Assembly: GCF_024138165.1 (NCBI RefSeq) | Contig: NZ_CP100001.1 | Location: 1-64,000, forward strand | Reading direction: 5' to 3' | DNA length: 64,000 nt | Origin: Halorussus vallis | GTDB taxonomy: Archaea; Halobacteriota; Halobacteria; Halobacteriales; Haladaptataceae | Notes under the pieces: generated by a model | The model's database searches: none | The model's input: the letters and a program-made list of their open reading frames with translations, nothing else | What the model was told of the DNA's origin: nothing | In this document: piece by piece, positions 7,514-49,986 of the stretch | How the letters are laid out: every line of letters begins with the position of its first letter | Numbering within the stretch: the stretch's first letter is position 1 | Translations under genes and position numbers: made by a program

Positions 7514-7681
7514 ATGGCAGACCTAATCGTCAAAGCGGCCGTCAAGGACGCACTCGAAGGCAAGAACGTCTCCTCGGACTTCTACGACGCGCTCGACGAG
7601 CGCGTCGCGGAACTCCTCGAGGAAGCCGGAACCCGAGCGGGTGCGAACGACCGCAAGACCGTTCAGCCCCGCGACCTCTGA
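7514..7681 (+). CDS. DUF1931-type histone-fold small protein (55 aa)
   Basis: 55 residues: MADLIVKAAVKDAL, then NVSSDFYDALDERVAELLEEAG and NDRKTVQPRDL. The sequence matches the small haloarchaeal DUF1931 proteins, which adopt a single histone fold in solved bacterial relatives. The final RKTVQPRDL resembles the end of archaeal histone alpha-2/alpha-3 segments. DNA binding or a regulatory role is possible but not shown. An AT-rich ATGGTTTTATCTAG lies about 30 bp before the start and probably serves as its promoter. Confidence 0.8.
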   Translation: MADLIVKAAVKDALEGKNVSSDFYDALDERVAELLEEAGTRAGANDRKTVQPRDL

Positions 7682-7770
7682 GGTCGGCGCACGAACGAAC
7701 TTTCTCGTTTATCGGACCGACGCCGTAGTCGCTTCACTGTTCCGACTCGTGAGTCCGCCGACCGACGGGA

Positions 7771-7798
7771 ACGGTCCGCGCCGCGCGGCGCGGACCGT
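7771..7798. repeat. 28-bp perfect GC palindrome
   Basis: Arms ACGGTCCGCGCCGC (7771-7784) and GCGGCGCGGACCGT (7785-7798) abut with no spacer. It lies between the convergent DUF1931 and GH97 genes. It could form a hairpin in either transcript; no T tract follows, so intrinsic termination is uncertain. Confidence 0.7.
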
Positions 7799-7838
7799 CC
7801 CCGCTTTCCGTCGTTCTCTAATCGTCCCTCTATCTCTC

Positions 7839-7874
7839 GGCGGCCCGGCCGGTCGGGCGACCGGCCGGGCCGCC
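7839..7874. terminator. GC hairpin between convergent genes
   Basis: A 15-bp perfect stem (GGCGGCCCGGCCGGT at 7839-7853, its complement at 7860-7874) with a 6-base loop, ending 9 bp from the GH97 stop codon. Its place after a convergent pair suggests a 3'-end or bidirectional stop role; haloarchaeal terminators usually also need a T tract, present here only weakly upstream. Confidence 0.45.
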
Positions 7875-7883
7875 CGATTCGGC

Positions 7884-10800
7884 TCAGACGTCGTAATCGG
7901 GCCGGACGGGGCCGATGGGTCCCGCGTAGAGGCCGCCGCCGCCGCCGGCGTCGTAGACCCGAATCGCGATGACGTTCTCGCCGCCGTAGTTGACGCTCTC
8001 CGAGGGCACCCGGTACTTCCGCTCGACCTGCCACGCGGTGGCGAAGCCGTCGTCGGGGCTTCCGCTCTGGCCGACCGTCTCCCCGTTGAAGAAGGTCCGG
8101 TCGACGTCGTCTATCTTCCCCAGCGGGACCAGCAGGTCGGCGTCGTACTGCGCCCAGGACTCGGGGACGGTGATGGTCTTGCGGTACCACCCGAAGACGT
8201 TGCTCTCGGTGTACCCCGAGTGGTCCTCCCAGTTGGCGGGCAGTTCGACCCGCTCCCAGCCGCTATCGTCGTAGTTCGGGGCCGCCCGGGCCGGGTCGTC
8301 GCCGGGTTCGAACAGCCACGTCGGCGAGAGTTCCATCGCCGGCAGCACCTCGACCGTCTGGGCGGGAAGCGCCTCCGCCGCCGACCGGCCGACCCGTATC
8401 TCGTGGTCGCCCGCCGAGAGGTAGGGTAACTCGACCTGCGCGGTGGCCTCGCCCTCGCCGGGGGCCAACCGGACGAACGCGCTGGCCACCTCCTCGCCGT
8501 CGACGAACACCCCCAGGCGCTCGCCGCCGACGACCGACCCGGCGTTCCGCCCCGAAATCGTGAGGCGTATCGACCCGCCGGAGACGGCGACGTCGGGCGC
8601 CTCGAAGCCGGTGTAGGTCTGGTCCGGCGCCTCGTAGGCGGGGACGTCCCGCCGGTCGCCCCCGTCGGCGGGCCGGAGTCGAATCGCCTGACCGCCGCTG
8701 GCGGCCATCGAGGCGACGGCGGTCGTCCCGGGGTCGACCAGCAGTTCGTCGACCCGGACGTCGGTGGGGTTCTCGTCGTAGCGGGTGCCGGCCGCGTCCG
8801 AGTAAATCTCCGCGACGTACTTCGGGCCTCGCGGCGCGCCGCGGCCGTCGGCGTTCTCGTCACGGGGGCTGAGGAACGAGAGCGGGACGTCGACGGCGCG
8901 GCCCGCCCCGTTCGTCATCGCGCCGACGTACCACTCCTCGCCCTTCCGGCGGGCGGTGACGACGTACTCGCCGATTTCGGCGTCGACGACGGTCGTGTCG
9001 TCCCACCCGCCGGCCGGGACCACGGCGAGGAAGTCGAACTCGCGCTCGGTTTCGAAGTTCTCGGCCTCGGGGGCGTAGCCCTCGTACGCCTCGGGAATCG
9101 GCGACTCCGCGCCGTGCTCGGTGACCGCGACCGTGTTGAGGTTGAACCCGCCGACGTCGCCGGTGAACATCTCGCCCGAATCGTCGTAGTGGAGTTCGAC
9201 GGCGACGGTGTTGTCGCCCGCTGTGAGTTCGACCGAGGTCGTGAACACCCGCCAGTCGTCCCAGTACTCGGTGAACGGCGGTTCGAGGGTCCGGGTCTCG
9301 CCGTTGACCCGGAGCGTGGCCCGCGGCCCGCCGGCGTCGATGACGCGCTGGGAGTTCTCATTGGGCGCGCTGGCGTACCGGAGGTGGAGGTCGTAGGTCC
9401 CGTCGGCCGGCACGTCGGTCACCGCCCACGACGCCGACGACCCTGACGGCACCCGGTTGGGGTCGACCGCGACGTAGTTGGTCCCGAAGGCGTTCCGCCA
9501 GTTGTCGGCGGTGACGAACGCGCCGAGGTCGCCGCTGGCCGCCTGGAGGAGTTCGCCGACCGAAAGCTCGGGGTTCACGTAGGCCTCGATGCGGTCGGCG
9601 GCCATCTGCAATCCGGCGTTGTAGTTGGGGTACATCGCGAGCTGTTTCGCCCGCGTCGTCTGTATCTGCCCGCCGGTGTCGTCGTGGAACGTGATGTCGA
9701 AGATGCCGGGCTGATAGCTCGCCGGGCCGGCGAGCATCCGGGTGAACGGCAGCGTGACGTGGTGGTCCGTGCCGACGTCCGACCCGAGCGCGGTGAAGCC
9801 GTCGTACTCCTGGGCCTTGACCGTCTCCGTCGACGCGAGGTTGGGGTAGGTGCGGCGCTTGCCGGTGGGCTTGTCGGCCTCGTGGCGTTCGAGCAACTGC
9901 CGGTTGCCGGCGGCGCGCCGCGCGACCAGTTCGTGGTGGTTCACCGCGATCTGGCTGTGGTGGTTGGTCGTCGCCGTCCCGCCGTCACCCTCGTGGCCCA
10001 GGCCGTTGTCGTTGACGTAGCCGTTCTTGATGCTCCGGATGTGGTTGTCCTCGTAGAACGCGAAGATGTCGTCGTTCAGTATCTGGTCCTCGTAGTTGGG
10101 GAGGTTCCCCGCGGTTTCGTTGTGAGCGGTCATCTCGACGCTCGGGTCGAGCGACTGGCCGTAGTCGGTGACCGCTGGCAGGTCGAAGTCGGGATACGAC
10201 TCGTCGAAGTCCATCGACACTCCGGACCCGGGGTAGCTATCCCATCCCCGATTCCAGCCCTCGACGAGCACGCTCTCGACGCCGTTCTCGCTGGCGAACC
10301 GCATGTACCGCTTCATGCGCTCGGTGCGGGCGCCGTGGATGTACGCCGCCGGGTCGCCGCCGTTCGCCTCGATGTCGGCGTCGGACTTGTACTCCCAGTT
10401 GGCGTTGCCCGCGATCATCGTCCACCAGATGCCGACGTACGTCCGGGGCGTCATCCAACTCGTGTCGGGTTCGCCGCCGACGGTCGGCAGCACCGACTCG
10501 TCGAGGTCGTCGTTGAGTAGCGGAATCAGCGACGACTCCATCAGGTCGCCGGGGTTGCGCCCGAGTTGGACGGTCCGCCAGGGCGTCGCCAGCGGGGGTT
10601 CGGCCGACACCTTCGTCCCGTCGGGGAGCGGCGCGAGTTCCGCCGAGAAGTCGGTTCCGCCCTCCGTCGACCGGGGTGCGAGCGACATCGTGGCGTAGTC
10701 GGTGAGGTCGGCCTCGTGGACGCTCAGGTACGCGTCCTCGCCGGCCCTGACCGTGAACGGGGTGTGGGCGCCGTTCCGGACGGCGTTCCCGTTCGGGCGG

Positions 10801-42911: not shown

Positions 42912-43604
42912 ATGCGACGACGCGAATTCCTCCTCGCGAGCGGTCTCGCCGCCGCGACGGCCCTCGCCGGTTGCTCCGGAAACGCCGCCCCGCCCCCGCG
43001 AAAGTCCAACGTCGTCTCGAACGTCGAGACGACCGACACCGCCCTCCGCATCGACCTCGCCGACCAGGCGTGGGTCATGTCCCGCTACGACGGCGGCGGT
43101 AGCCAGTCGCTCGCCGACCCCGACGACGTCGGAGGGTTCGGCCCCGTCGGCGTCGCCGGCGCGAAGGGGAAGGGCGGCGGCGGCGGTCGAGGCGCGACCG
43201 GTCGCGGCACCGGCGGCTACAGCAAGGCGCCCCGGACCCACCACGGCCGGGCGTGGTTCCACGGCGGCGGCTACGCCGACGACTGGTACGAGAACCACTC
43301 CGACGAGGTGTCGAAGTACCCGGTGGCCGTCGCGGCGCTCGGCGTCGCGTACCTCGGGTCGTCCTTCGCGTTTCAGGACGACAAGCCCGGTCCCGGCCCG
43401 GTCAACTGGGACGAAGTGTACCGGAACCCCGACGACGCGGTGAAACACCCCATCTCACAGGACGGATGGTACCGCGTCGGCACCCGCATCGAGGGCGAAA
43501 AGTCGGGCCACGACTTCCGCTGGGAGTCCATCGACCTCGAGGTCAAGGACGCCGGGTCCGGCTACGAGATCGGCGAGGAGTGGAAGGTTTCCCCGCGAAT
43601 CTGA
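42912..43604 (+). CDS. Tat-exported lipoprotein at head of SpeE-like cluster
   Basis: 230 residues from ATG 42912. The Tat signal MRRREFLLASGLAAATALAG ends at the lipid-modified Cys21. A Gly-rich stretch (AKGKGGGGGRGATGRGTGG) at about 86-105 divides the protein; after it come GRAWFHGGGYADDWYENH and a hydrophobic VAVAALGVAYLGSSF, which may be a membrane segment. The C-terminus (WYRVGTRIEGEKSGHDFRWE) is beta-rich. I do not recognise a named family with certainty; DUF4247-type lipoproteins accompany similar clusters in bacteria. It is the first gene of the run ending with the channel at 49986. Confidence 0.7.
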   Translation: MRRREFLLASGLAAATALAGCSGNAAPPPRKSNVVSNVETTDTALRIDLADQAWVMSRYDGGGSQSLADPDDVGGFGPVGVAGAKGKGGGGGRGATGRGTGGYSKAPRTHHGRAWFHGGGYADDWYENHSDEVSKYPVAVAALGVAYLGSSFAFQDDKPGPGPVNWDEVYRNPDDAVKHPISQDGWYRVGTRIEGEKSGHDFRWESIDLEVKDAGSGYEIGEEWKVSPRI

Positions 43605-43874
43605 CCCGACGCGCCCGCCCCGAGCAGTAGCGTTTCCAACAAGTCTATAAGTGAGATTCGAGAACGCAGACGCCATGCGACGGTGTGAGTCCCGCCCGGA
43701 CGACCCTCCCCGACCCGAACCGGGCGTCGCTCGCGGACGAATCGTCGCCCGCGATTTCGCCGTCGCCCGTACGCCCGCCACCGCACGGCGGCCGATTACC
43801 CCTCCGGTCGGGTGCGTCGACGCGCGGTCGCGCGACCGTCCACATTCGAACCCGCCGCCGGTCCCCCATCCACG

Positions 43875-45641
43875 ATGAAGGCAGCGACCCAGACGAAACG
43901 GCTGACCCTGCTCGCTCTGACGTACGTCGTCTCGTTCTGTAGCTTCGCCTACGAGTTCGTCTACTCCGAACTGCTGACGGTGATGTACGGCGGCACCGTG
44001 ACCCAGTACGTCATCACGGTGGGACTGTACTTCTTCAGCCTCGGAATCGGGTCGGCGCTGTCGGACGACCTCGACGCCGACGCGCCGTCGAACTTCTTCC
44101 GGACCGAGGTTTACCTCGCGGCAGTCGCGCCCGCCGGATTCATGCTCATCGTCGGCTTGAACAGCGTCGCGATTCCGAAGGCCGTCCCGAACGAACTGAT
44201 ATGGGTGCTGGCGCGACTCCCGGCGGTCGCGGTCGGCTTCCTCTCGGGGTTCGAACTCCCGCTGTTGACCCGGATGGTCGACGACCTCGAAACCGAGTCG
44301 CGGCTCCTCCCCCGTCGGGTCACCGGCGCGTTCGCCCGAATTCACCGCCTCGCGCTCGGGGTCGTCGGCCTGTTCTGGTCGGTCGAGCGCCGCGAGGGCG
44401 AGCGCAGCGGTCTGTCGGTCGTGCTGGCGCTCGACTACGTCGGCGGCCTGTTCGGCGCGGTCGTCTACGCCCGGGTGCTCTACCCGAAACTCGGCCTCGT
44501 CCCCACCATCTTCGTGCTGGCGCTGCTCAACGCCGTCGCCGCGCTCGCGTTCGTCGCGCGGTTCAGCGACCGGCCCTGGGGGCTGTTCGCCGGCGAGGAC
44601 CGGTCGCTGGTCAGCCGCGAGTCGCGGGCGCTGTTCGCCGTCTGCCTGCTGTTGACGGCGGCCTACGGCGGTGCGGTCGTCGAGCACGAGCGGGTCGACC
44701 GCGGCGTGACCGAACTCTACCTCGAACGCCAGATAGAGTCCGAGTACGCGAAGGGCGCGATGAAAGCGGAGATCACGAGCCAGACGACCACGAAGTACCA
44801 GCACGTCGTCCGGTATCGGCGGACCTGGACCGGCGCGGGCGACAACCCCCACTTCGAGGGCGACACCGAGGAGTGTCTGCGACTCGGGACGGCGGTCCAG
44901 CTCTGCGAGAGCTGGGCCGACTCCTACCACCAGGGACTGGTCGACGTGCCGATGTCGATGTACGACCACTCGCCGGAGACGAACGTCCTCGTGGTCGGCG
45001 GCGGCGACTGGATCGCGGTCGACCACCTCCGGAAGTACAACGTGAGCGTCGACCACGTCGACCTCGACGCCGAGTTCATGGCGACGGCGCGCAACGACTC
45101 GTTCTACGCCCGCTGGCACGACGACGCCTACGAGTACGACCGGCTGAACACCACCGTCGGCGACGGCTACGCGTTCCTGAAGCGGACGAACGAAACCTAC
45201 GACCTCGTGTTGCTCGACCTGCCGGGCGCGACCGACAGCGACCTGCTGAAACTCTACTCGAAGGAGTTCTACTCGTCGCTGCGCCGCCACCTCGAACCCG
45301 ACGGGACCGTGGTGACCTGGGCGTACTCGCCCGACGGCTACCCCCAGCACCACAAGGCCTACGTCAACACCGTCCGGGCCGCGGGCTTCGACCGCTACCT
45401 GCCCTACTCGTCGTGGGAGGACGTGGACGCCGACGGCGAAGTCGAGCGCGTCGAGCGGTTCTACGTCCTCGCGCCCGGCCCGCGCGAACAACTCCCGGTC
45501 GCCGAGGGAACCGACTACGTCCGGAAGTACCGCGACCGCTACCGGGACCTCCGGTGGCGCGAGATGCCCCGCTACCGCGGCGTGGGCGTGAACTCGCTGT
45601 TCCACCCGAACTACGACATCATCATCGACGACTGGCCATGA
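43875..45641 (+). CDS. membrane-anchored spermidine synthase-like protein
   Basis: 588 residues. The first half has six or seven membrane helices (LTLLALTYVVSFCSFAYEF, YVITVGLYFFSLGIGSAL, LIWVLARLPAVAVGFLSGF and others). The second half, from about 320, is a spermidine-synthase fold: MYDHSPETNVLVVGGGDWIA, VDHVDLDAEFM, and LVLLDLPGATDSDLLKLYSK. The normal DxxD active-site Asp is replaced in context (LPGATD), so true aminopropyl transfer to putrescine is not certain. The ATG at 43875 is close to the first helix. The next gene overlaps by ATGA. Such proteins occur with DUF2617 and DUF350/DUF4178 genes in bacteria, in membrane-stress type clusters. Confidence 0.82.
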   Translation: MKAATQTKRLTLLALTYVVSFCSFAYEFVYSELLTVMYGGTVTQYVITVGLYFFSLGIGSALSDDLDADAPSNFFRTEVYLAAVAPAGFMLIVGLNSVAIPKAVPNELIWVLARLPAVAVGFLSGFELPLLTRMVDDLETESRLLPRRVTGAFARIHRLALGVVGLFWSVERREGERSGLSVVLALDYVGGLFGAVVYARVLYPKLGLVPTIFVLALLNAVAALAFVARFSDRPWGLFAGEDRSLVSRESRALFAVCLLLTAAYGGAVVEHERVDRGVTELYLERQIESEYAKGAMKAEITSQTTTKYQHVVRYRRTWTGAGDNPHFEGDTEECLRLGTAVQLCESWADSYHQGLVDVPMSMYDHSPETNVLVVGGGDWIAVDHLRKYNVSVDHVDLDAEFMATARNDSFYARWHDDAYEYDRLNTTVGDGYAFLKRTNETYDLVLLDLPGATDSDLLKLYSKEFYSSLRRHLEPDGTVVTWAYSPDGYPQHHKAYVNTVRAAGFDRYLPYSSWEDVDADGEVERVERFYVLAPGPREQLPVAEGTDYVRKYRDRYRDLRWREMPRYRGVGVNSLFHPNYDIIIDDWP

Positions 45642-46282
45642 CTCCAGACGAACCCCCCGCGCCGGACGACGTCACCGAACTCCACTTCGCCTACGCGACC
45701 GACGCGCCGAGTCTCGACGCCTTCGACGTGAAGGCCGTCGTCCCCGCGGAACTCCTCGGTCGACCGGCCGCGCTCACGGTCATCGGCGCGTCCCACTACG
45801 TCGGCGTCCCCGACCTCGGCTACCACGAACTCTGTTCGTGCCGGCCGCCGACGGCGGCCGGCACGGACGCGGACGGTTTCGCGGGCGCCGACGCCTTCGC
45901 GACCCCGCTGGAGGTGGGCGTCGAGCGCAAATTTGGATTCGAAACCGACCGCCTGCGCGCGGAAACCCGCGCCGACGTGCGCGACATCGACGCGTTCCCC
46001 GGCGCGGCCGACGCCGACGCGTCCTACAGGTTCGGTCCCGGGGCGTGGACGACCATCGAACTCGGCGCGTCGCGCCGGACTGCTCGCCCCTCCGCCCGCT
46101 ACGAGACGTACCACACGTACCCCGAGTACGGCCTCGCCGTCTACACCGAGACGCGACTGACGCTCTGCGCCGAGGGTGCAACCTCCGACTCGGCCGACGA
46201 GCGACCGGCCGACGACCCACGCGAGTCGACCGACCGCGAAAACACCCCGCCGACCGACACTCCCCACTCACACCACCCATGA
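45638..46282 (+). CDS. DUF2617-like protein
   Basis: 214 residues. The region ELLGRPAALTVIGASHYVGV resembles the LxLRxLGASH motif of DUF2617, a family encoded next to membrane SpeE-like genes in actinobacteria. The rest alternates short beta strands. A 12-bp inverted repeat with 3-base loop (45838-45864) encodes CRPPTAAGTD in a linker. It overlaps both neighbours (ATGA each side), so translation is coupled. The C-terminal 35 residues are disordered and acidic. Family assignment is moderate. Confidence 0.6.
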   Translation: MTPDEPPAPDDVTELHFAYATDAPSLDAFDVKAVVPAELLGRPAALTVIGASHYVGVPDLGYHELCSCRPPTAAGTDADGFAGADAFATPLEVGVERKFGFETDRLRAETRADVRDIDAFPGAADADASYRFGPGAWTTIELGASRRTARPSARYETYHTYPEYGLAVYTETRLTLCAEGATSDSADERPADDPRESTDRENTPPTDTPHSHHP

Positions 46283-47232
46283 CCGACGAGACCGACACCT
46301 ACAGCGGCGACGTGACGCTCAGCGGCCACGAGGACGCCCCCGTGGCGGTTCAGGACCCCGAAGATGTGTTCTTCCGCACCGGGAGCGTCTCGGGCGACGT
46401 GGAACTCCGGAACCCCGAGTACGTCTTCACCCACCAACCCACCGGCGACGCCGAGGTCGGCGACCCCGAGACGGTCGTTCGCGGCGACCTCGAAGACGGC
46501 TACACCGAAACCGGCGGCGTCGACGGCGACGTCGCGGTCGAGGACGCCGGCGACGTGTTCGTCCCGGCCGACGCCGCGGCGGGCGGCCTCGCTGTCGTCG
46601 GCGCGGAGAACGTCTACTCGGACGACGCGGGACCGTCTCGGGACCCCGACGAGTACGACGTCTCGCTCACCGGGTGGAAGCAGTCCGGCCGGGTCAGCGA
46701 CCCCGACACGGGCGTCTACGTCACGGGCGCTCACCACGAGGTGACGGTCGAGAAGGCCCGCCGGGACCTCGACATCTACGTCGTCGGCCACGGCCACACC
46801 GTCGAGATTTCGGGGCGGAACGCCGCCGTCTCGGTGCGGTTCCTCGGCTACGAGAACACCGTCGAACGCGGGCCGTACCTCACGGCCGACGTGGTCGCCG
46901 ACACCGGTTTCGACAACGAGGTCGCCGCCGAACCGTACCCCGTCGAGGACCTGATAGAGGTGCCGAAGGCCGAGGCGTTCTCGAACGCCGGGTTCGGCCG
47001 GAAGAAGGTCACCTTCCAGGTGCCCGCCGACGGCGACGACTGGTGTCCCAACTGCGGCGAACCTGCCGACGCCATCGTCGAACGCCACCAGATGGAGGCG
47101 TGGTTCCTCTTCGGCCACCCGATACGGACCTACGACCGCTCGACCAACCCGGCCCGCGAGTGCGAACACTGCTCGCCCAACGCCTTCGACGCGACGCTCA
47201 CCGCCGAGGAGCGCCGCGACGTGCTGAAGTGA
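46279..47232 (+). CDS. acidic beta-structure protein with CxxC zinc-binding motifs
   Basis: 317 residues. The first 190 residues are short repeats in which acidic and Val/Gly residues alternate (SGDVTLSGHEDAPVAVQDPEDV, DVELRNPEYVF, DVAVEDAGDVF), typical of a right-handed beta-solenoid like bactofilin or DUF3060. The middle has VGHGHTVEISGRNAAVSVRF. The C-terminus contains WCPNCGEPADAIVERHQMEAW and RECEHCSPNAF, which can hold one zinc ion. I do not recognise a named family for the whole. It is coupled to the DUF2617-like gene and belongs to the cluster. Confidence 0.6.
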   Translation: MTDETDTYSGDVTLSGHEDAPVAVQDPEDVFFRTGSVSGDVELRNPEYVFTHQPTGDAEVGDPETVVRGDLEDGYTETGGVDGDVAVEDAGDVFVPADAAAGGLAVVGAENVYSDDAGPSRDPDEYDVSLTGWKQSGRVSDPDTGVYVTGAHHEVTVEKARRDLDIYVVGHGHTVEISGRNAAVSVRFLGYENTVERGPYLTADVVADTGFDNEVAAEPYPVEDLIEVPKAEAFSNAGFGRKKVTFQVPADGDDWCPNCGEPADAIVERHQMEAWFLFGHPIRTYDRSTNPARECEHCSPNAFDATLTAEERRDVLK

Positions 47233-47430
47233 CCCCCGCCCGCGCAGAATCGAGCGCCGGACCGCGATTTCGGGAGCGACGACCCGACGCCCCCGAATTC
47301 GACCGTTCGACCCGGCACGAAACCCCAAATCTATATATCGCTGTGGTGAACAATCGAGGAGACGTGAGAGCTACCCCCGCGAACCGTCTGACGAACGACC
47401 CCGCCCTCCGCTCCCCGCACCTTCGAACCC

Positions 47431-49986
47431 ATGGCAGGAACTGAAGACGAACCGACGGACGAATCGGACCGCGAGTCGCCCAATCGCTCGGCGGCCGGGC
47501 GCGCGCCGCCGACCCGGCGCGGATCGACGAACGGACGCGTCCCCGAGAACGGGTCGGCGCCCGTGACGCGCGAGAACGGGTTCGACCACGGCCGCGCGTC
47601 CGCCGATGGAGAGGGCGAGGACCCGCAGGACGAGTCGTCGCCGTCCCCGTCGGCCGACAGGTCGCGGACCCCGTCGTCCCGCGACGACCCGTCGACCTGC
47701 CGGTACGCCTTCGACCCGACCCAGAAGACCGACGCCCACCTCCAGACGACGTGGGAGTGCCCGCACGCCGCCCACGCCGACAGCGAGTTCTGCGTGTTCC
47801 ACATGAACTACGACGAGCGCAAGGCCTGCGGCGTGACCGCCGCAGACGTGGTCGCTCGCCTCAAGGAGAACCTGAAAGCCGAAGACACCCGCGCGAACGA
47901 GTACGTCGGTGCCGACCTCCCGCACCTCTCGCTGACCTACCAGGACATCAACGGCGACACCAACCACGTCATCAACTTCCAGCACGCCGACATCGACGGC
48001 ATCGACATCACCCACGGCCGCCTCGACCAGGGGCTGAACCTCCGGGAGGCCACGGTCGGCACCCTCAAACTCGAGGACGCCATCGTCACCGGCCTGTTCG
48101 AGGCCCCCGGCATCACCGTCGAGGAGGCGTTCGTGACCGACGAGTCGACGTTCCACCAGGACGTCCACTTCGAGGACGCCGACTTCCGCGGGCCGGTCGA
48201 CTGCGACGAGGCGACGTTCACCGAGGACACCAGTTTCGCGGGCGCGACGTTCCACGACGTGGCGCACTTCCGGAACGTCGAAACCAGCGGCACGAGCCAC
48301 GTCCTCGAAGACCGCGTCTCGTTCGCCGACGTCGAGTTCCGCGACGACACCAGTTTCCGCCAGGCCGACTTCGAGTACGCCACCTTCGAGGGCGCGACGT
48401 TCCACGCCGAGTCGGACTTCGAACACGCCGTCTTCGACGGCGACGCCCAGTTCGACCGCGTCACCTTCCACCAGGTCGCCGACTTCGACGAGGCCCGGTT
48501 CGACGACGACGTGAGCTTCGAGGAGGCCCGGTTCATGGCGCTGGCGGAGTTCCGCGGCGTGGAGTTCAACGGCGGCAGTCGGACCTCCGACGACGACGTG
48601 ACCTTCGAGAACGCGATTTTCGAGGGCGAGGCCGACTTCAAACTCGCGCGGTTCCGGTTCGCCGACTTCAAGGACGCGACGTTCGAGGGCGACCTGAACT
48701 TCGACCGCGCGCGGTTCGACGCCCGGGCCGACTGCCACCGCATCTCGGTCGCGGGGCAGACCGACCTCCGGCGAGTCGAGTTCGTCGACACCGTCAACTT
48801 CGACGGGAGCGAGTTCGCCGACGAGGTGACCGCCGTCGAGGCCGAGTTCGGCGGCGACGCCGACTTCGTGAAGGCGACCTTCGACGCTGTCGCTCGGTTC
48901 ACCGAGGCCCGCTTCCGCGAGGACGCGAGCTTTCGGGCCGGTACCTTCCGCGACCGGGCGGTGTTCCGCGGCGCGGTGTTCGAGGGCGAGGCCAAGCACC
49001 TGGAGGAGAACGCCTCCTTCGAGGAGGTGGCGTTCCTGTCGAGCGCGGACTTCGAGGCCGCACGGTTCACCAACGCCTCGTTCCGGGACGCGACGTTCCA
49101 CGACGAGTGTCGGTTCCGGCGCGCCGAGTTCCTCGACGGGGTCAACTTCCGGGTGCACGCCGGCGACGACGACGTGTACGTCGACCTCACCGAGGCGACG
49201 GTCGAGGGCGGTTCGGTGGTCCTGGCCGGCGGCGACCCGGTGCTGTACGACTTCACCAGGGCGACGGTCGGCGAACTCCAGTTGGAGAGCGAGGGGAGCG
49301 AACACGAACTGCTCGACCACTTCCGCATCTGTCTCACCGACTTCGACCACTTCGACTTCAGCAACCACCACGGCTACCTGGAGCGCAACGACTGGAACGT
49401 CCACGCCTTCCTCGGCGACGACCGGCCGGCCACGCCCACGCCGACCGTCGAGATGACCGACGAAGTGATCGAGGAGACCTACCGGAAGGCCCAGGACAGC
49501 GCCGACGCGGTCGGCGACACGCCCGCCTCCCGGGAGTTCGAGTTCAAGCGCTACTACTACAACCGCAGGAAGAACCTCGACATCGTCCGCAACGAGTACT
49601 CGCTCAACGGGTGGAGTCGGGCGAAGAAGGCCTCCAGCGTCGCGCTCAACTACTTCATGCAGTTCACCTGCGGCTACGGCAACCGCCTGCCGCGAATCGC
49701 GGCGCTCACCTTCTTCCTCCCGGCGCTGTTCGGCGTCCTCTACGTCCTCGGCGGGCCGTTCCAGACCCAGGCGGGCGTCCTCTGGAGCGACGGTACCATC
49801 GACCCGACGGTGCTGTTCGACGGGCTGTACTACAGCTACATCAGCTTCAGCACCATCGGCTATGGCGACATCGGGCCGGTCGGCTGGGCCGCGAAGCTCC
49901 TGGCGATGAGCCAGGGGATGTTGAACGGGTTGTTCTTCACCCTGCTCACGTTCACGCTGTTCAAGCGGGTACTGGGTGGGAGCTAG
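47431..49986 (+). CDS. pentapeptide-repeat protein fused to a two-helix K+ channel
   Basis: 851 residues. A disordered acidic leader (about 1-90), a Cys/His-rich segment (TWECPHAAHADSEFCVFHMNY), then about 400 residues of pentapeptide-type repeats (FEDADFRGPVDCDEATFTED and many more F-x-x-A-x-F units) forming a right-handed beta-helix. After a linker the C-terminus is a membrane pore: IAALTFFLPALFGVLYVL, pore helix and selectivity filter STIGYGDIGPVGW, then GMLNGLFFTLLTFTLF. It would conduct potassium. The 5' leader holds a TATA-like CTATATATCG about 95 bp before the start. The beta-helix may sense the membrane or the neighbouring proteins. Confidence 0.8.
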   Translation: MAGTEDEPTDESDRESPNRSAAGRAPPTRRGSTNGRVPENGSAPVTRENGFDHGRASADGEGEDPQDESSPSPSADRSRTPSSRDDPSTCRYAFDPTQKTDAHLQTTWECPHAAHADSEFCVFHMNYDERKACGVTAADVVARLKENLKAEDTRANEYVGADLPHLSLTYQDINGDTNHVINFQHADIDGIDITHGRLDQGLNLREATVGTLKLEDAIVTGLFEAPGITVEEAFVTDESTFHQDVHFEDADFRGPVDCDEATFTEDTSFAGATFHDVAHFRNVETSGTSHVLEDRVSFADVEFRDDTSFRQADFEYATFEGATFHAESDFEHAVFDGDAQFDRVTFHQVADFDEARFDDDVSFEEARFMALAEFRGVEFNGGSRTSDDDVTFENAIFEGEADFKLARFRFADFKDATFEGDLNFDRARFDARADCHRISVAGQTDLRRVEFVDTVNFDGSEFADEVTAVEAEFGGDADFVKATFDAVARFTEARFREDASFRAGTFRDRAVFRGAVFEGEAKHLEENASFEEVAFLSSADFEAARFTNASFRDATFHDECRFRRAEFLDGVNFRVHAGDDDVYVDLTEATVEGGSVVLAGGDPVLYDFTRATVGELQLESEGSEHELLDHFRICLTDFDHFDFSNHHGYLERNDWNVHAFLGDDRPATPTPTVEMTDEVIEETYRKAQDSADAVGDTPASREFEFKRYYYNRRKNLDIVRNEYSLNGWSRAKKASSVALNYFMQFTCGYGNRLPRIAALTFFLPALFGVLYVLGGPFQTQAGVLWSDGTIDPTVLFDGLYYSYISFSTIGYGDIGPVGWAAKLLAMSQGMLNGLFFTLLTFTLFKRVLGGS

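Follow-up and report, generated by a model that had tools for sequence, protein, structure and literature searches.

A conserved five-gene membrane module of haloarchaea pairs a SpeE-like membrane protein with a DUF2617 protein resembling S-adenosylmethionine decarboxylase

Introduction

A stretch of 64,000 nucleotides (nt) of Halorussus vallis, hereafter called the window (NZ_CP100001.1, positions 1-64,000, assembly GCF_024138165.1; it is the start of a 557-kb contig in a genome of 5.05 Mb), carries five genes, lettered A to E here, that form a module conserved in haloarchaea. They encode a lipoprotein (A), a membrane protein with a spermidine synthase-like (SpeE-like) domain (B), a DUF2617 protein (C), an acidic beta protein (D), and a potassium channel fused to a pentapeptide beta-helix (E), and their grouping is far beyond chance. 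Judged from its sequence, C is probably a homologue of S-adenosylmethionine (AdoMet) decarboxylase (AdoMetDC), for which SpeD is the prokaryotic reference here, and this likeness allows a specific role to be proposed for the module as a whole. The general type of cluster was already known from bacteria, but neither the haloarchaeal composition nor the relation between DUF2617 and SpeD was found in the literature searched, in which few subscription papers were covered, and both appear to be new on that basis.

Conservation of the five genes

All five genes lie on the forward strand, as the initial annotation of this DNA had described. It had also reported three genes with ATGA overlaps; there are two such overlaps of 4 nt each, B/C and C/D, which join three genes, and gaps of 270 nt and 198 nt separate A from B and D from E, respectively. 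The same annotation had recognized a twin-arginine (Tat) lipoprotein in A, a membrane SpeE-like protein in B, a DUF2617-like protein in C, an acidic beta protein with CxxC pairs in D and a channel-pentapeptide fusion in E, and all of these identities are upheld by the signals, domain matches and models described below.

The wider occurrence of the genes was examined by Pfam and profile searches of 294 Halobacteria genomes. A Pfam match to DUF2617 was found in 23 of them, and in all 22 DUF2617 loci other than that of the window, A, B, C and E were located within ~7 kb of one another, with D present in 21. By profile search, full-length orthologues of B occur in 44 genomes and C was found in exactly the same 44, while full-length E was present in each of these and in only three of the other 250 (G053, G192 and G050). 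The corresponding Fisher p-values are ~1e-53 for B with C and ~1e-49 for E; it is to be noted that these are uncorrected for genome relatedness and therefore overstate independence, although the pattern still spans 20 genera. When GTDB genomes were additionally scanned using the alignment of B, 57 named haloarchaeal loci were obtained, representing over 20 genera. A adjoins B in every one of these loci, and A-B-C are contiguous in 56, the remaining one being truncated where its contig ends; 53 of the loci have D and 44 have E. In 22 of 22 loci, B and C either overlap or almost touch, the gap being no larger than 30 nt in 21. D and E are more variable in order and orientation (ABCDE in 19 of the 57, ABC-E-D in 7, ABC plus reversed D and E in 7, D reversed upstream in 10, and others). 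The earlier expectation that the genes are neighbours across haloarchaea is thus confirmed in both sets of loci. When the flanking open reading frames (ORFs) of the 22 loci and the window were compared all-against-all, no further conserved neighbour emerged, as nothing was common to more than 5 loci, and extra module members were rejected on these grounds.

The position of the channel gene deserves separate mention. E lies on a separate contig in two genomes (G114 and G213) and ~160 kb away from B on a Haloferax larsenii plasmid. Since every sampled genome that has B and C also has E, be it at a distance from them, E is a genuine member of the module that is sometimes relocated, and the channel does take part, as had been asserted initially. 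Full-length E genes apart from any A-D were also observed at four loci (L181, L182, L183 and L184), representing three module-less genomes and a second copy in genome G284. Matches to DUF2617 were found in 11 haloarchaeal plasmid records, and a plasmid search for bacterial DUF2617 sequences returned haloarchaea only; the closest plasmid matches to B are from Halorussus, with 81, 79 and 78% identity.

Likeness of the DUF2617 protein to SpeD

Protein C scored 33.7 bits against the Pfam family DUF2617 (PF10936), above the curated cut-off of 22.3 bits (E-value 5e-8), and all 17 members examined matched this family. A canonical SpeD (PF02675) was absent from the window genome when that genome was searched with the profile. 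Among the 294 Halobacteria, SpeD was found in only two, neither of which has B, so that none of the 44 B-C genomes contains it.

When the DUF2617 profile was compared with all PDB chains, a single match was obtained up to an E-value of 10, and this was the AdoMetDC proenzyme 2iii, with a weak E-value of 0.22; the alignment is nevertheless gapless and pairs FepeAvTai...HtYpEh with FQPHGATGV...HTWPEH. In a profile-profile comparison, 67 C proteins matched archaeal SpeD with a probability of 82% (E-value 1e-5), which became 87% when two haloarchaeal SpeDs were added, and 91-93% for the C-terminal half alone. As controls, proteins A, B, D and E gave less than 1% against SpeD, 60 column shuffles gave at most 4.8%, and the reversed profile gave 0.2%. 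In BLAST comparisons within a set of fewer than 20 proteins, the C-terminal halves matched SpeD with a best E-value of 2e-7. A weaker match of the N-terminal half (E-value 0.004) placed IVGESHAVSVP...IFSC on LISESHVSIHTWPE...VFTC, with SH on SH and SC on TC. Overall, the agreement is gapless over ~25 residues, and the spacing from F to H is 19, as in SpeD, in 42 of the 67 sequences.

Conservation of individual residues in the same 67 sequences adds to this picture. S52, H53 and E64 are present in all 67, C68 and T138 in 66, and H159 and E163 in 65, the remainder for H159 consisting of one gap and one unread residue; the spacing between S52 and C68 is always 16. The equivalents of the SpeD catalytic residues Ser63, His68 and Cys83 (Thermotoga maritima numbering) would be S52, H159 and C68, each kept in at least 65 of the 67, the assignment in the N-terminal half being the weaker. 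T138 is presumably the equivalent of SpeD S55, and the correspondence of C residues with those of eukaryotic AdoMetDC is likewise our assumption. Residues S63, H68 and C83 are indispensable in SpeD, and the eukaryotic class 2 AdoMetDC is a fusion of two class 1b halves; a cleavage site is missing from the second of these (PMC10407285). The arrangement in C, as far as its motifs indicate, resembles this class 2 type, with the Ser and Cys positions in the first half and the S55 and H68 positions in the second.

C therefore shares with class 1b SpeD and the eukaryotic class 2 enzyme an SH...C motif in the N-terminal half, an F.P..T...HT.PE motif in the C-terminal half, and catalytic positions distributed over two halves. 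It differs from them in that its domain of ~165 residues is shorter than two SpeD chains, that no fixed Glu precedes Ser52, that its second half lacks a Ser and Cys of its own, and that it scores under the Pfam threshold. The homology of C to SpeD is, in short, supported but short in extent; an actual AdoMet decarboxylase activity of C we regard as an even prospect.

Two observations were made on the rare haloarchaeal SpeD proteins themselves. One of them stands beside a soluble SpeE on a 93.7-kb contig of a genome without the B-C module (L180:8373-8789 and 9246-10154; G140:C2), and reads FGVIGESHISVHTWPE...LLTC, VIGESH being common to many C proteins. The other, at a contig end (L179, ~7550-9600; G091:C34), directly adjoins a distant relative of the E channel, possibly a sign of another pairing with channels of this type, based on SpeD.

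The membrane SpeE-like protein

B matched Pfam Spermine_synth (PF01564) with an E-value of 2e-18 and the aminopropyltransferases of the PDB with E-values down to 2e-22, the latter match being confined to its C-terminal part. Its score stayed under the spermidine synthase equivalog cut-off (NCBIfam PRK03612; 227 versus 472 bits). In an alignment of 73 homologues, Q309, Y351, H352, D378 and D448 are kept without exception, but the second Asp of the acceptor site, on the putrescine side, is replaced by G451 in all 73, unlike in spermidine synthases. D378, in the GGGD motif, is taken by us to be the Asp that binds the aminopropyl group of decarboxylated AdoMet (dcAdoMet) in SpeE; the roles given to the other SpeE-type residues are similarly presumed from SpeE structures. 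Since B retains GGGD, D448, Q309, Y351 and H352, but has G451 and falls under the equivalog cut-offs, it probably uses dcAdoMet or a similar donor, and not putrescine as the acceptor.

In hydropathy profiles averaged over the homologues, the basic residues of B fall in the N-terminus and in loops 2-3, 4-5 and 6-7. By the positive-inside rule, this charge pattern places the SpeE domain outside the cell and suggests that it is extracytoplasmic. The invariant C334 and C344 would suit an external disulfide. The bacterial homologue at locus L113 (7941-9500) has a charge pattern similar to that of B, with one helix under threshold; the membrane SpeE pattern in haloarchaea and in this one Bacillota member points to an extracytoplasmic catalytic domain. 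A second SpeE-like family was also noticed, which matched only the catalytic part of B (E-values of ~1e-8 to 1e-16) and occurs in ~134 of the 294 genomes, in those that are without C and mostly without SpeD; this widespread family is perhaps of the HVO_0255 type.

Proposed mechanism and its alternatives

The likeness of DUF2617 to SpeD, together with the absence of SpeD, suggests a concrete reaction, which the initial annotation had missed. The five genes would constitute one membrane module, in which C, a diverged two-half relative of AdoMetDC, makes dcAdoMet or a close analogue, or at least binds it and hands it on, and B moves the aminopropyl group to an acceptor other than putrescine, probably an amine, a lipid or a surface component at the membrane. 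Lipoprotein A may be the partner of B outside the cell, D may serve as a cytoplasmic zinc/beta adaptor, and E, the potassium channel, may couple the module to K+ flow through its cytoplasmic pentapeptide helix. We put the chances for and against this proposal as roughly equal. A bolder extension, offered tentatively and with the odds against it, is that DUF2617 represents a compact prokaryotic two-half AdoMetDC architecture parallel to that of eukaryotic class 2, feeding a membrane aminopropyltransferase that modifies an acceptor at the surface or among the lipids, perhaps on the outer side of the membrane, and that the product or the state of the membrane sets the K+ flow via a pentapeptide-gated channel.

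Several observations weigh against the aminopropyl-transfer mechanism. Masking of HTYPE lowered the profile match of C to 2.8%, and the SpeD signal is therefore concentrated in this motif; the N-terminal half alone scored 10-14%. Pfam AdoMet_dc was touched by only 2 of the 17 DUF2617 members, the best E-value being 0.028, under the cut-off. The residue before the pyruvoyl Ser position, which is normally Glu, is variable in C (S, E or N). If the SpeE domain of B is outside the cell, as the hydropathy predicts, a cytoplasmic C would be unable to supply the donor without export. According to a 2016 study (PMC5178350), deletion of HVO_B0357, a haloarchaeal seven-helix SpeE, had no phenotype under the conditions tested. 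Lastly, several genomes (e.g., L085, L086 and L097) gave no E when the locus was searched for it.

Part of this evidence would also fit a C protein that retains the AdoMetDC fold but has lost decarboxylase activity, and that instead has a binding or regulatory function (AdoMet, dcAdoMet or the product as ligand) by which it controls B; B would then be like an aminopropyl- or methyltransferase and use a different donor. The lack of a standard Glu-Ser cleavage pair, the restriction of the SpeD similarity to motifs and the loss in B of the second acidic residue of spermidine synthases are in line with such a role, as are the statements, in PMC5178350, that no AdoMet decarboxylase is known in halophiles and that no spermidine was found in Haloferax volcanii. 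A mere binder, however, would have no need of four separate catalytic positions kept almost fully in 67 sequences, nor does this view readily accommodate the GGGD Asp that is kept in all homologues of B; we consider it possible but rather improbable. It may be asked, further, whether DUF2617 is related to SpeD at all, or whether HTYPE arose by convergence in an envelope system with a chemistry other than aminopropyl transfer. The modest PDB match, the loss of most of the signal upon masking, and the published view of DUF2617, which goes no further than a beta-sandwich enzyme in which His, Asp and Glu are conserved (PMC11237479), speak for convergence. They have to be set against the gapless agreement with its SpeD-like F-to-H spacing, the second match in the N-terminal half with its conserved Ser and Cys, the failure of shuffles and unrelated families to give anything comparable, and the logic of a pathway in which a SpeE adjoins C, and convergence is accordingly judged unlikely.

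The patchy distribution of the module (44 of 294 genomes), its frequent location on plasmids, as in the records mentioned above, and its varying flanks could furthermore be those of a mobile cassette for stress or defence that resides on haloarchaeal plasmids, in which E would be the effector channel and a possible killer, and the SpeE domain does weakly match the PADLOC model mad2. But this is the only one of the five proteins to match a defence model, and it does so over the shared AdoMet-binding (SAM) fold alone; A-D look metabolic or structural, and no other defence genes were noticed in the flanks. A defence system was rejected for this reason, and a mobile cassette of this kind is very improbable.

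Relation to known systems

Bacterial operons have been described that combine a seven-helix SpeE fusion with DUF350, DUF4178, lipoproteins and CesT-Tir/PspA; a related group of operons includes a potassium channel, another variant has DUF4247 and DUF2617, and DUF2617 itself was described as a beta-sandwich enzyme (Ravi et al. 2024, PMC11237479). An example is the Thalassobacillus locus L113, with the order DUF4178-PspA-lipoprotein-DUF350-membrane SpeE, the families being assigned by eye. The haloarchaeal module shares with these clusters the membrane SpeE, DUF2617 and a lipoprotein, and with the related group a K+ channel. It differs in having the zinc/beta protein D, in the fusion of the channel to a pentapeptide helix, in the lipoprotein A, which is unrelated by sequence, in that no PspA was seen in the module, and in that C and E are present in every sampled haloarchaeal genome with B. 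Neither DUF350 nor DUF4178 gave any match in the whole window genome, bearing out the initial remark that they are missing. The kinship with bacterial envelope clusters claimed at the same time stands with respect to the membrane SpeE, DUF2617 and the presence of a lipoprotein, but not for A itself, for which a sequence relation to DUF4247 or any Pfam family is unsupported; the interpretation given then is partly supported, its envelope-stress role and its coupling to potassium flux being hypothetical. The participation of a channel is not new in itself, since a potassium channel had already been assigned to a related group of operons (PMC11237479).

With regard to haloarchaea, PMC5178350 describes HVO_B0357 and HVO_0255 of Hfx. 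volcanii as seven-helix SpeE-like proteins whose putrescine-binding residues are lost, the organism itself having no AdoMetDC, which is the same view as that taken here for B; it also raised, in 2016, the source of dcAdoMet for haloarchaeal SpeE homologues as a question. Neither DUF2617 nor neighbouring genes are mentioned in the passages considered here; in our control search Hfx. volcanii was found to carry a DUF2617 match. Beyond PMC11237479, PMC10407285 and PMC5178350, nothing relevant was found in the literature on DUF2617, membrane aminopropyltransferases or archaeal pentapeptide channels.

Lipoprotein A, beta protein D and channel E

The coordinates of the genes and of their main features are collected in Table 1. 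In A, the invariant residues comprise RR, GC, PPR, GxxGR and W/D. None of 15 homologues of A matched any relevant Pfam family, DUF4247 included, nor did A itself match a Pfam family; in its structural model, high confidence is largely limited to the C-terminal beta part, and no PDB match was significant, and a relation to known lipoprotein families was rejected on these two grounds. The lipoproteins of the bacterial clusters are DUF4247 or Ctha_1186, and the comparison with A covered the Pfam families.

For D, Pfam gave only a sub-threshold match to DUF3060 (E-value 3e-4). Its AlphaFold model is nearly all beta, with a mean pLDDT (predicted local distance difference test) of 91. Despite this good model, a relation to a solved fold was rejected, as the best Foldseek match, a bactofilin, was not significant (E-value 0.48). 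The Cys pairs of D form a probable zinc site. In five loci (L041, L042, L046, L047 and L097), D is represented by two adjacent ORFs, one for a small acidic protein of beta repeats and one for the C-terminal part with the zinc ribbon, and the D of the window therefore looks like a fusion of the two.

E matched Pentapeptide_3 (E-value 2e-59) and Ion_trans_2 (E-value 2e-10) in Pfam. It resembles the two-helix K+ channels of the latter family in its pore helix and TxGYG filter, but no RCK domain was found in it, and its cytoplasmic part is instead the long pentapeptide beta-helix. E and its closer relatives also have an N-terminal C...CPH...C..H motif (window positions 47698-47810), a possible zinc site that is missing from most of the other E subgroup.

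Table 1. Genes of the module and their features in the window
Feature	Position	Strand	Description
Gene A	42912..43604	+	Tat lipoprotein; RR motif and lipobox LAGC (MRRREFLL...LAGC)
A, further features	42912..43604	+	After the lipobox: PPPR[KR]S, Gly-rich stretch, C-terminal beta domain; predicted outside the cell
Gene B	43875..45641	+	Seven membrane helices plus spermidine synthase-like domain; best start 43875
B residues 11-270	43905..44684	+	Seven predicted membrane helices; positive-inside pattern for N-terminus in, C-terminal domain out (averaged hydropathy, 73 homologues)
B C334...C344	44874..44906	+	Cys pair invariant in 73/73; flanks predicted hairpin of SpeE N-terminal beta domain
B GGGD 375-378	44997..45008	+	SpeE donor-site motif; Asp D378 in 73/73
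B D448-x-P-G451	45216..45227	+	First acidic residue of SpeE retained; Gly invariant at the second, putrescine-side position
Gene C	45638..46282	+	DUF2617 protein; proposed to be AdoMet decarboxylase-like
C N-half motif I49-G-x-S52-H53...E64..S67-C68	45782..45841	+	Matches SpeD ESH...TC (pyruvoyl Ser63 and Cys83 positions)
C C-half motif F132.P.A.T138...H159-T-Y-P-E163	46031..46126	+	Matches SpeD F.P.G.[ST]...H68-T-W-P-E
Gene D	46279..47232	+	Acidic beta protein; C-terminal zinc-ribbon-like module
D Cys pairs C256/C259 and C295/C298	47044..47172	+	Invariant in 14 homologues
Gene E	47431..49986	+	Pentapeptide beta-helix (N-terminal) joined to a two-helix K+ channel pore (C-terminal)
E selectivity filter T-I-G-Y-G (T808-G812)	49852..49866	+	T808, G810, Y811 and G812 invariant in 16

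Significance

SpeE-like proteins exist in haloarchaea, but no source of dcAdoMet is known there, and C is now a candidate for it. The likeness of DUF2617 to SpeD and its one-to-one co-occurrence with one membrane SpeE family make the question directly testable. If C is indeed an enzyme, a reading would be offered for the DUF2617 proteins of the bacterial clusters as well (PMC11237479), and the family would provide another example, the second, of an AdoMetDC divided between two half-domains. The pentapeptide-K+ channel, finally, co-occurs tightly with the other genes, which gives this channel type its first set of partners.

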